Assembly (NCBI GenBank): GCA_017303755.1
Contig: JAFLBS010000011.1
Span: 40,892-104,891, forward strand
Reading direction: 5' to 3'
DNA: 64,000 nucleotides
Source: Flavobacteriales bacterium
GTDB taxonomy: Bacteria; Bacteroidota; Bacteroidia; Flavobacteriales; Flavobacteriaceae
The notes under the pieces were generated by a model. The model saw only the letters and a list, made by a program, of their open reading frames with translations, was not told the origin of the DNA and did no database searches. Shown here one piece after another: positions 6,094 to 8,362 of the stretch (the stretch's first letter is position 1; every line of letters starts with the position of its first letter). The position numbers and the translations under genes were made by a program.

Positions 6094-6765
6094 CTAAAAA
6101 TCCAAATCAAACGTCTTTTTGAGTAACTCAACATTCGGATTGATTTCATTCAAACGATTGTATTTGTCTTGGCTCGTAAAAGCTATTTTACTTTTGATTC
6201 CTTCATTAACAATTACATCTATTGTAATTTCATGATTGTGTAAATGACCGCGTAAATAACCTAAAAGTTCAGGTTTTTCTTTTTCAAAATCAATTTTAGA
6301 ACCTTCGTTGGGTAACTCATATACAATTTTAAAACCTTCCAATTTGGGTTCGTTCATGCGCAACAACGATTCCATTATTTTATGGCCTTTATCGCCTAAT
6401 CGATCGGCGTATTTGAACCAAAATTGGAGCATATCCGTTTCAGAAAATTGCTCAGCCGGCAATTGAACATCTTGCTTTACAACACCTTTTTGTTGTTCTA
6501 ATAATTCTTTTTTCGCGCGAATACTCGCCAATGATAAAGCCGAAACTTTGGGTTCGTTGGAATCTAATGGTTTTGAAGTTGGAGTATTTTCAACTGGTGT
6601 TGCTAATTGAACTTCCGGAATTACTTTTGGTTCTTCTTTAACTTCAACCTCAGGAATAGTAACTTCTGGTGGATTGGAACTCTCAGTCTGTGGTTGTTGA
6701 GTAACTACTTCTTTAATCGAAAAATCATTTCGTCTGAAATAGGTTGGCGGAATTATAAAGTCAGC
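6094..6765 (-). CDS. dnaX: DNA polymerase III tau C-terminal extension (dnaX, -1 frame)
   Basis: This frame continues dnaX after the A10 run. It codes for ~223 residues: a Pro/Glu/Thr-rich linker, then a folded C-terminal domain (FSETDMLQFWFKYADRLGDK and the segment after it) that in tau would contact DnaB helicase and the polymerase alpha subunit. The frame is closed by TGA at 6781-6783, immediately upstream of the run, and it has no ATG between there and the folded domain. It should therefore be reached only by a one-base shift from the upstream frame. Joining the two gives 580 residues. It is either tau made by slippage, or a dnaX broken by a homopolymer sequencing error. Confidence 0.85.
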   Translation of the reverse strand, partial: ADFIIPPTYFRRNDFSIKEVVTQQPQTESSNPPEVTIPEVEVKEEPKVIPEVQLATPVENTPTSKPLDSNEPKVSALSLASIRAKKELLEQQKGVVKQDVQLPAEQFSETDMLQFWFKYADRLGDKGHKIMESLLRMNEPKLEGFKIVYELPNEGSKIDFEKEKPELLGYLRGHLHNHEITIDVIVNEGIKSKIAFTSQDKYNRLNEINPNVELLKKTFDLDF

Positions 6766-7835
6766 TTTTTTTTTTCTCCATCAAAGTTGATAGAGCACAA
6801 TTGCATGAGTGTTAATTCGACTAACAATCGTTGGTTTTGTGAAACCTTAAATTTCAAATCACAATCGTTGGCAATTTCAATGGCTTTTAATAAAAAGTCG
6901 GGATTGCATTTTTGCGCTTGTTGACCATAAAGCAGTTGTGCTTGTTCGCCCGCTTCCAATAAAGTCAGTGTTGCGGGATTTTTACACACTAATAAATCTC
7001 TGAAATGACTCGCCAAACCAGCAATAAAATGATGTCCATCAAAACCTTTTGATAAAATATCATTGTAAGCCACCAAAATCTCAGGAATGTTGTTCTCCAA
7101 AATCAAATCGGTTACGTTTACATAGGTTTCGTAATCCAACACATTCAAATTTTCGGTTACGGCTTGTCGTGTCAAATTGGTTCCACAGTACGAAACCACA
7201 CGGTCAAAAATAGACAAAGCGTCGCGCATCGCACCATCGGCTTTTTGAGCAATGATGTGTAAGGCATCGTCTTCAAATTGAATTCCTTGACTTTGAGCTA
7301 CTTCTGCCAAATGATCTTTAGCGTCTTTAACGGTAATTCGTTTGAAATCAAAGATTTGACAACGCGATAATATGGTCGGAATGATTTTGTGTTTTTCGGT
7401 CGTAGCCAATATAAAAATGGCGTGCTTAGGCGGTTCTTCTAAGGTTTTCAAAAACGCATTGAAAGCTGCAGACGATAACATGTGAACCTCATCAATGATG
7501 TACACTTTGTATTGACCCGTCTGTGGTGGAATTCGGACTTGGTCAATCAGATTTCGAATATCATCTACTGAGTTATTCGAAGCAGCATCCAATTCGAAGA
7601 CATTAAAAGCAAAATCTTCGTTCGGATCATCATAACCTGGTTGATTAATTTTTCGTGCTAGAATTCGAGCACAAGTGGTTTTCCCAACGCCACGCGGACC
7701 AGTAAACAATAGAGCAGAAGCCAAGTGATTGGTTTCTATGGCATTCAACAAAGTGTTGGTAATAGCTTGTTGTCCGACAACATCTTTAAATGTTTGCGGA
7801 CGGTATTTACGAGCTGATACTACAAATTGTTCCAT
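6753..7835 (-). CDS. dnaX: DNA polymerase III subunit gamma/tau, frame-0 product (gamma-like)
   Basis: This is the clamp-loader ATPase. The 360-residue frame-0 product contains GPRGVGKTT (Walker A), IIDEVHML (Walker B), LATTEKHKIIPTILSRCQIF (sensor 1 and SRC) and domain III, and then ends LTL-stop right after the A10 run. That is about the size of clamp-loader domains I-III, that is, a gamma form. The four-cysteine zinc module usual after Walker A (E. coli type) is missing: the segment reads CARILARKINQPGYDDPNED. A promoter lies at 7852-7881. The complete tau product would span 7835 down to 6094. Confidence 0.95.
   Translation of the reverse strand: MEQFVVSARKYRPQTFKDVVGQQAITNTLLNAIETNHLASALLFTGPRGVGKTTCARILARKINQPGYDDPNEDFAFNVFELDAASNNSVDDIRNLIDQVRIPPQTGQYKVYIIDEVHMLSSAAFNAFLKTLEEPPKHAIFILATTEKHKIIPTILSRCQIFDFKRITVKDAKDHLAEVAQSQGIQFEDDALHIIAQKADGAMRDALSIFDRVVSYCGTNLTRQAVTENLNVLDYETYVNVTDLILENNIPEILVAYNDILSKGFDGHHFIAGLASHFRDLLVCKNPATLTLLEAGEQAQLLYGQQAQKCNPDFLLKAIEIANDCDLKFKVSQNQRLLVELTLMQLCSINFDGEKKKLTL
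6766..6775 (-). other. A10 slippery run in dnaX (candidate programmed frameshift)
   Basis: On the coding strand ten A are followed by G, read in frame 0 as GAA AAA AAA AAG. This contains A AAA AAG in the same phase as the E. coli dnaX slippery heptamer. Frame 0 meets TAA at 6753-6755, and frame -1 has TGA at 6781-6783, so the frames can be joined only within 27 bases. I see no strong upstream SD or downstream stem-loop, which favours transcriptional slippage over ribosomal shifting. Confidence 0.7.
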
Positions 7836-7881: not shown

Positions 7882-7970
7882 TGTAAATGTCAATAACAAA
7901 TTGAAAAAATGTTTTCAAAATAAGGTTTAAAAATTGAATCCGAAATGTTTGTGACTACTACTTTTTATTA

Positions 7971-8034
7971 TTGCCATTGATATTGTCATTGCCATTGTCA
8001 TTGCGATTGATATTGCCATTGTCATTGCCATTGC
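7971..8034 (+). repeat. Hexamer repeat with TTG every 6 bp, upstream of rnpB
   Basis: Eleven copies of an imperfect NNATTG unit (CCATTG, TCATTG, GATATTG-like) run with an exact 6-bp period; TTG begins at 7971, 7977 and so on to 8031. The repeat fills the -33 region of the rnpB promoter. The open frames across it are repeat artefacts. Confidence 0.9.
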
Positions 8035-8043: not shown

Positions 8044-8047
8044 CACC

Positions 8048-8347
8048 GCAGACCGCCTTATCGCTGTTCAGTAATGAAGAGAGGAAAGTCCGGACACCAA
8101 AGAGTAGCATATTGGGTAACGCCCAACCGTTGAAAGGCGAGGACAAGTGCAACAGAAAGTATGTACAGGTTAAGCTGTAGTGAAACCAGGTAAACTCTAT
8201 GCGGTGAAATTTCAAGTATATCGACATTTAAGGGTTACTCGTCCGTTGTCGAAGGGTAGAAAGATGGATTCCGAGAGTAATTTCGGAACTAGATAAATGA
8301 TAAGGCATTTTCGTAAGAAAGTGACAGAATCCGGCTTATAGGTCTGC
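8048..8347 (+). ncRNA. rnpB: RNase P RNA
   Basis: This is the catalytic RNA that removes 5' leaders from tRNA precursors. It is about 300 nt. The 5' end GCAGACC (8048-8054) pairs exactly with GGTCTGC (8341-8347) to close helix P1. The universal GAGGAAAGTCCGGACACC core is at about 8080-8100, and ACAGAATCCGGCTTATAG lies near the 3' end. A run of nine T follows at 8348 and probably ends transcription. Both small open frames across this region are overlaps of the RNA and its repeat, not genes. Confidence 0.96.
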
Positions 8348-8362
8348 TTTTTTTTTATACAA

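Follow-up and report, generated by a model that had tools for sequence, protein, structure and literature searches.

A conserved ten-A run in a split dnaX gene of a Flavobacteriales bacterium and its relatives: gamma and tau probably made by transcriptional slippage

How can tau be made from a dnaX gene whose tau-specific part is encoded in another frame than the rest of the protein? This question is raised by a locus carried by a stretch of 64,000 nucleotides (hereafter the window) from a Flavobacteriales bacterium of the family Flavobacteriaceae (GenBank assembly GCA_017303755.1, contig JAFLBS010000011.1). A sequence-only reading had described there a dnaX gene with an A10 run and two frames, a layout that is confirmed in the sequence and conserved in relatives. 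The locus comprises the following features, given in window coordinates:

6753..7835, minus strand: dnaX frame 0, encoding a gamma-like product of 360 aa (open reading frame with matches to Pfam PF13177, PF22608 and PF12169 and to TIGR02397, 384 bits)
6776..6795, minus strand: hairpin adjoining the 5′ end of the A10 run (8-bp stem with arms 6788-6795 and 6776-6783, 4-nt loop 6784-6787)
6766..6775, minus strand: A10 slippery run, T10 on the plus strand (sequence and conservation)
6094..6768, minus strand: tau-specific tail in the -1 frame, 223 aa past the run, ending with TAG (homology and predicted fold)
6761-6763, minus strand: third-frame stop TGA, reached with one A fewer (sequence; enriched over the null in relatives)
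6753-6755, minus strand: frame-0 stop TAA, closing gamma from unslipped transcripts (sequence)

The AAA+ clamp-loader ATPase, the lid and domain III of the gamma-like product are all encoded in frame 0 (Pfam), whose last codons are GAA AAA AAA AAG CTG ACT TTA TAA. The stop lies three codons beyond AAG and not directly after it, as had first been written. The A run counts exactly ten bases (6766-6775). The -1 frame is limited upstream by a TGA (6781-6783) and is open as far as the TAG at 6094-6096; the open tau-like tail initially recognized there stands, with 223 codons past the run. The tail being in the -1 frame past the frame-0 TAA, a change of frame is indeed needed for tau in this gene. 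In terms of run length, gamma would come from A10 and, in a slightly shorter form, from A9, whereas tau would require A11 or A8. Just upstream of dnaX and on the opposite strand, the window carries a bacterial RNase P RNA gene of class A (RF00010, 202 bits, 8045-8354, plus strand). Degenerate tandem ATTGCC/ATTGTC repeats (7970-8034, period 6/12, about 10.8 copies of six) are found between this gene and the dnaX start.

The tail is a genuine protein sequence: of the tails compared, at most 341 in number, 299 match it by BLASTP with E 1e-3 or better, and relatives of the same genus that carry it in frame 0 show 48-60% identity with the tail of the window (E down to 6e-98). Its start (FIIPP) is conserved, and structure prediction gives a confident fold for residues about 100-222. 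The tail has no Pfam match at E 0.001 and no PDB sequence match better than E 0.17. Its fold matches others only at the level of common arrangement, with no E. coli tau chain among the 50 VIA matches listed.

We collected 371 dnaX loci, of which 364 remained distinct after seven duplicates were dropped. L169 and L175, which are truncated by a contig end, were left out of the phase counts, and 341 loci were classified. The loci from order, class and phylum kin (55, 82 and 21 distinct loci) are the best 30 of each search plus a hand-chosen spread. Five bins titled Rhizobium, Sphingobacterium, Chitinophaga (two) and Bdellovibrio (L052, L054, L080, L086, L088) carry a dnaX that is 89-91% identical to that of the window; these titles look wrong, or the bins mixed.

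This comparison revealed a run of eight or more A at the site in 343 of the 364 distinct loci, including all 206 at family level. Runs of nine or more were found in 341 loci: 65/65 from the same genus, 73/73 named, 68/68 from the same family and, beyond the family, 51/55 from order kin, 70/82 from class kin and 14/21 from phylum kin. Exactly ten A make up the run in 291 of the 341 classified loci, the range across loci being 8-14. By comparison, the rest of the same 341 genes holds one A run of nine or more in 362 kb of N-terminal parts and six in 203 kb of tails. The genome of the window carries 39 runs of ten or more A; besides that of dnaX, five of the 38 others are located inside a sense ORF of at least 100 aa (L375, L378, L393, L397, L403). 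In two of these (L375 and L393), both other frames have a stop no more than one codon from the run, making them possible further slippage sites. Among 79 other families, the run of eight or more is present in all loci taken for 59, in none for 17 and in some for three. The 17 families devoid of it suggest loss or another route to gamma. Loci taken without a long A run include L184, L190, L196, L327, L328, L332-L334, L348, L354 and several from phylum kin.

Whereas the run is highly conserved, the frame of the tail is not. Relative to frame 0 of the template, tau lies in frame 0 in 150, in -1 in 181 and in +1 in 10 of the 341 loci; since the same-genus and same-family loci include deliberately picked cases (split ones in the family, single-frame ones in the genus), the ratios within these two groups do not describe a random sample. 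The search of the genus (matches in 146 of 150 genomes) returned mostly split genes, together with ten in which a single frame is open over 566-614 codons and a partial match of 490. In the family search, about half of whose matches were listed, the listed ones were mostly open, with a split minority. According to a FastTree tree built from the N-terminal part, the phase changed at least 47 times over the 341 loci and six times over the 65 loci of the same genus. At least 34 switches occurred among the 291 loci with exactly ten A (one FastTree tree), and therefore much of the switching results from small indels outside the homopolymer. The swapped roles of gamma and tau, compared with E. coli, had been presented as a distinctive feature of this gene; the phase has switched many times, even within the genus, and the swapped form was already published in 2013 (PMC3711429). 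The ten +1-phase loci are isolated on the tree; six have runs of 11-14, one a run of nine and three exactly ten. Some of them may be homopolymer errors, since six have 11 A or more. Two members of the same family (L224 and L140) carry runs of 14 and 12 A with tau in the +1 phase, which may be real or a homopolymer error.

Two mechanisms could connect these frames, slippage of RNA polymerase at the run or programmed -1 ribosomal frameshifting. Transcriptional slippage predicts stops in both non-tau frames, whereas -1 ribosomal shifting needs only one alternative frame. In 329 of the 341 loci, each of the two non-tau frames meets a stop within 10 codons past the run (null 33-35%), and in 275 within four codons (null 8-9%), the null being codon positions elsewhere in the same genes. 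Frame 0 is closed within five codons in all 181 loci with tau in -1 (fraction 1.00). The frame that plays no part in a -1 shift is closed too. We took one locus per family beyond the window's own and counted how often this frame has a stop within five codons: with tau in -1 it does so in 86% of 21 loci (null 42%), and with tau in frame 0 in 77% of 39 (null 29%); when all 50 tau-in--1 loci beyond the family are counted, the first of these fractions is only 66% (null 42%).

According to the ribosomal explanation, which we regard as unlikely, tau would arise from a homogeneous A10 mRNA by a -1 shift at the in-frame A_AAA_AAG, i.e., by the E. coli mechanism with reversed roles. In its favor, the heptamer is in frame in the window, the run ends in an in-frame AAG in 167 of the 341 loci, a -1 slip would supply the missing product in the 331 loci with tau in frame 0 or -1, and the codon register is constant within the family (200/206 loci). 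Furthermore, E. coli dnaX uses an A_AAA_AAG site, and Chlorobium phaeobacteroides has been named a candidate with E. coli-like stimulatory signals (PMC5009743). However, the run is kept at ten and not six, the base following it varies, and beyond the family its register differs, with offsets 0, 1 and 2 in 12, 33 and 16 of 61 families. Taken with the AAG found in 167/341 loci only, this variation indicates that the heptamer is not what is kept. The conserved third-frame stops and the ten loci with tau in the +1 frame also argue against -1 frameshifting.

The stimulators expected for a ribosomal shift point the same way. The 50 nt downstream of the run in the window form no stable stem (-3.9 kcal/mol, z -0.48), and a 45-nt free-energy test that detected the positive control, E. 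coli dnaX, at 1% revealed no general downstream stem: it placed the downstream window in the top 5% in five of 155 genera against the N-terminal part and in 11 of 155 against the tails. Shuffling of the 50-nt downstream windows showed low z values to be slightly in excess (9.6% below -2 vs. 1.9-3.8% in controls). A test of perfect stems alone (5.2% of 155 in the top 5%) was replaced by the free-energy test because it missed the imperfect E. coli stem. The Shine-Dalgarno stimulator of E. coli dnaX lies about ten nt upstream of the site. No such stimulator was found at this spacing in the window, where a GGAG stands just 4 nt upstream of the heptamer, within an arm of the hairpin. In addition, Bacteroidia ribosomes are reported to fail to recognize Shine-Dalgarno sequences, in a paper whose title states that ribosomes lacking bS21 gain function (PMC9976891), and on 70S ribosomes -1 frameshifting at A6G is attenuated when a hairpin lies upstream (PMC6321510). 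Ribosomes may nevertheless shift to some extent at the heptamer that the window has in frame.

The hairpin had escaped the sequence-only reading, which saw no stem-loop. In RNA sense, positions 6795..6776 read CTCTATCA-ACTT-TGATGGAG, a perfect 8-bp stem with zero gap to the run, which it adjoins on the 5′ side. By plain energy it is unexceptional (z -1.71 over 50 nt; outside the top 5% of 45-nt windows), and the 45-nt test placed 31 of 155 upstream windows in the top 5%, that of the window not being among them. The case for this putative element thus rests on position and comparison. We scanned for perfect stems separated from the run by 0-2 nt on its 5′ side and ranked them against the positions of their own gene. 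An abutting stem in the top 5% was found in 88% of 58 genera of the same family, the locus of the window included, and 81% were in the top 1%. Beyond the family, such stems, of unrelated sequence, occur in 25 of 97 genera and 18 of 61 families (binomial p 9e-12, genera taken as independent); none of the 11 phylum-kin genera has one in the top 5%. At family level, 168 of the 206 loci have seven or all eight of the pairs, 88% of the cells pair in the stem vs. 29-59% for slid partners, and the hairpin is weak or absent (above -5 kcal/mol) in 20. Four of the five further A10 runs in coding sequence of this genome have no perfect abutting stem, and the fifth has one of -1.4 kcal/mol. A strong natural case of hairpin versus run length is provided by an order-kin locus (L303), where an eight-A run follows a 14-bp perfect stem (-25 kcal/mol).

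It should also be considered that slippage is right and the hairpin, devoid of role, a by-product of the peptide SIxFDGEKKK, which is conserved. Part of the pairing is explained by the conservation of the SIxFDGE residues themselves. Codon choice was examined in 200 register-1 family-level loci, whose rows are related. In the stem, the Ile codon is ATC in 160/171 (19% elsewhere), and GGA is used in 167/182 (41%), TCT in 151/193 (30%) and GAT in 166/170 (74%); in the run, GAA is found in 199/199 and both AAA in 200/200. When each genus is represented by a single row (56 rows), the Ile site has 43 ATC, three ATT and one ATA. Across the family, codon choice thus follows the stem and not general usage. 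Covariation was tested on 67 distinct rows from 100 of the 206 family-level loci. Double-change cells (28 vs. 8.8 shuffled, 0/500) and the covariation score (0.225 vs. 0.141, 0/500) exceeded the shuffled values; two other measures were unexceptional, namely pairs with a double change (5 vs. 4.2, 188/500) and further pair types (15 vs. 13.8, 167/500). Family-level loci with 11 A or more are more often devoid of a hairpin (4/11 vs. 15/192 with ten A, Fisher p 0.012), the rows being few and related. The by-product explanation is a sub-case of slippage, so that its likelihood overlaps with that of slippage as a whole. It agrees with the conserved residues, with the absence of the stem in many other families and with the two unexceptional covariation measures, but the codon choice that strongly favors the stem and the recurrence of stems of unrelated sequence at the same spot in 25/97 genera make it improbable. 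We lean towards a role of the hairpin in slippage.

Three other explanations are much weaker. The A10 run could be a site of phase variation by replication slippage in DNA and not of recoding, since ten-base homopolymers can vary in DNA and runs of 8-14 are found among the loci; the constancy of exactly ten A in 291/341 loci, the simultaneous closure of both alternative frames and the hairpin with its codon preference make this very improbable. Furthermore, the products of dnaX are expected to be essential, which speaks against phase variation. The tail could also be a separate gene translated by reinitiation, the two frames overlapping near the stop codon. However, its first 78 codons include no ATG, GTG or TTG even though the FIIPP start is conserved, so that separate initiation does not explain it, and relatives carry the tail in frame; we give this explanation almost no credence. 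Lastly, an assembly error or a decayed gene, for which a split frame at a homopolymer would be the usual look, can be dismissed in view of the alignment with same-genus relatives, a check already proposed from the sequence, which found the A run in 65/65 loci and tau in -1 in 54/65, and of the homology of the tail to their in-frame tails: as judged from these sequences, the A10 run and the split frame are not a sequencing error.

We return to transcriptional slippage, by which this dnaX probably makes both gamma and tau at A10. Slippage by RNA polymerase had been put forward as the likely mechanism from the sequence alone; the stops in both frames, the run and the varied register give it better support, short of proof. 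The sequences show that the run is conserved, that the phase has switched, that stops close both other frames and that the hairpin has a synonymous-site preference; slippage itself, its rate and the effect of the hairpin are what we infer. RNA polymerase would add or drop As at A10 and thus generate an mRNA pool with several run lengths. Transcripts with ten (or nine) As would stop just past the run and yield gamma, while those with 11 (or eight) would enter the -1 frame and yield tau. All three frames being sampled, the template phase of tau would be nearly free to drift, hence relatives with frame 0, -1 and +1. Since the RNA-DNA hybrid measures 9-10 bp (PMC5009743), a hairpin ending at the first A would sit at the RNA exit channel, in the nascent RNA, while the run fills the hybrid. 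It may there raise or tune slippage, as in the IS630 transposase of Roseiflexus. This IS630-like geometry and the attenuation seen on ribosomes make the hairpin a better fit for a polymerase-level stimulator than for a ribosomal one; it could even hold ribosomes in frame. In families without a hairpin, the run alone may suffice.

Several known systems share parts of this layout. Two-ORF dnaX genes in which recoding is required for tau were reported by Antonov et al. in 2013 as fs-genes, and are prior art for the present work. Their cluster includes 17 genes from 12 genera, nine of the 17 with ten As, for which transcriptional realignment was proposed (PMC3711429). As in those genes, the dnaX of the window is split over two ORFs with tau at -1 on the DNA level, and its ten-A run is also present in relatives. 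The 5′ hairpin, the in-frame relatives with the same run and the third-frame stops found here have no mention in the available passages of that paper. In the passages returned by a full-text search of the literature, we likewise found no account of a hairpin at the dnaX A run or of a pattern extending over Bacteroidota. Two-ORF dnaX is thus already known; our comparison adds an A run that is present in every family-level relative examined, most of them with a conserved hairpin beside it.

The dnaX gene of Thermus thermophilus shares with that of the window an A run, the production of gamma and tau from one gene and nearby stops in both other frames; it differs by a run of nine and by tau being the templated frame (PMC1088944, PMC5009743). 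The slippage on an A9 run initially cited for Thermus agrees with these accounts. The window likewise shows the Thermus-type features, an A homopolymer of at least nine and stops near the run in both non-tau frames. E. coli dnaX also gives gamma and tau from one gene, and its A_AAA_AAG is present in the window. However, the shift makes gamma in E. coli, where a strong downstream fold (first percentile of its own gene), not general here, accompanies the site; the E. coli site has no perfect stem abutting it on the 5′ side. In the IS630 transposase of Roseiflexus, a 5′-adjacent stem-loop is the enabling feature for slippage by RNA polymerase (PMC5009743). In both this gene and that of the window, a perfect stem with a loop of 4 nt adjoins the slip run on its 5′ side. 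The Roseiflexus case involves a T5C5 motif, the loss of one C, a single direction and a mobile-element gene (PMC5009743), whereas the window has A10 in a housekeeping gene with both directions possible. In Shigella flexneri mxiE, slippage is also needed for the longer product (PMC1088944), but on a U run and in an unrelated gene, that of a transcription activator.

We propose, as a view that stands about evenly balanced, that the dnaX of Bacteroidota is an ancient and widespread recoding cassette made of A9-A11 and stops in both other frames, to which Flavobacteriaceae would add an abutting nascent-RNA hairpin placed like that of a terminator. The frames would be sampled so evenly that the phase of tau drifts almost neutrally, in a housekeeping gene with hairpin-assisted slippage, and the hairpin may suppress ribosomal frameshifting, leaving transcription alone to set gamma:tau. 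If this is true, slippage of RNA polymerase at a designed site would set the ratio of replicase subunits in much of a large phylum, within a lineage reported to have ribosomes that do not recognize Shine-Dalgarno signals. Hundreds of natural variants in phase, run length and stem would then be available for testing hairpin-assisted slippage. It would also be a warning that split dnaX genes in such genomes are not pseudogenes or sequencing errors.
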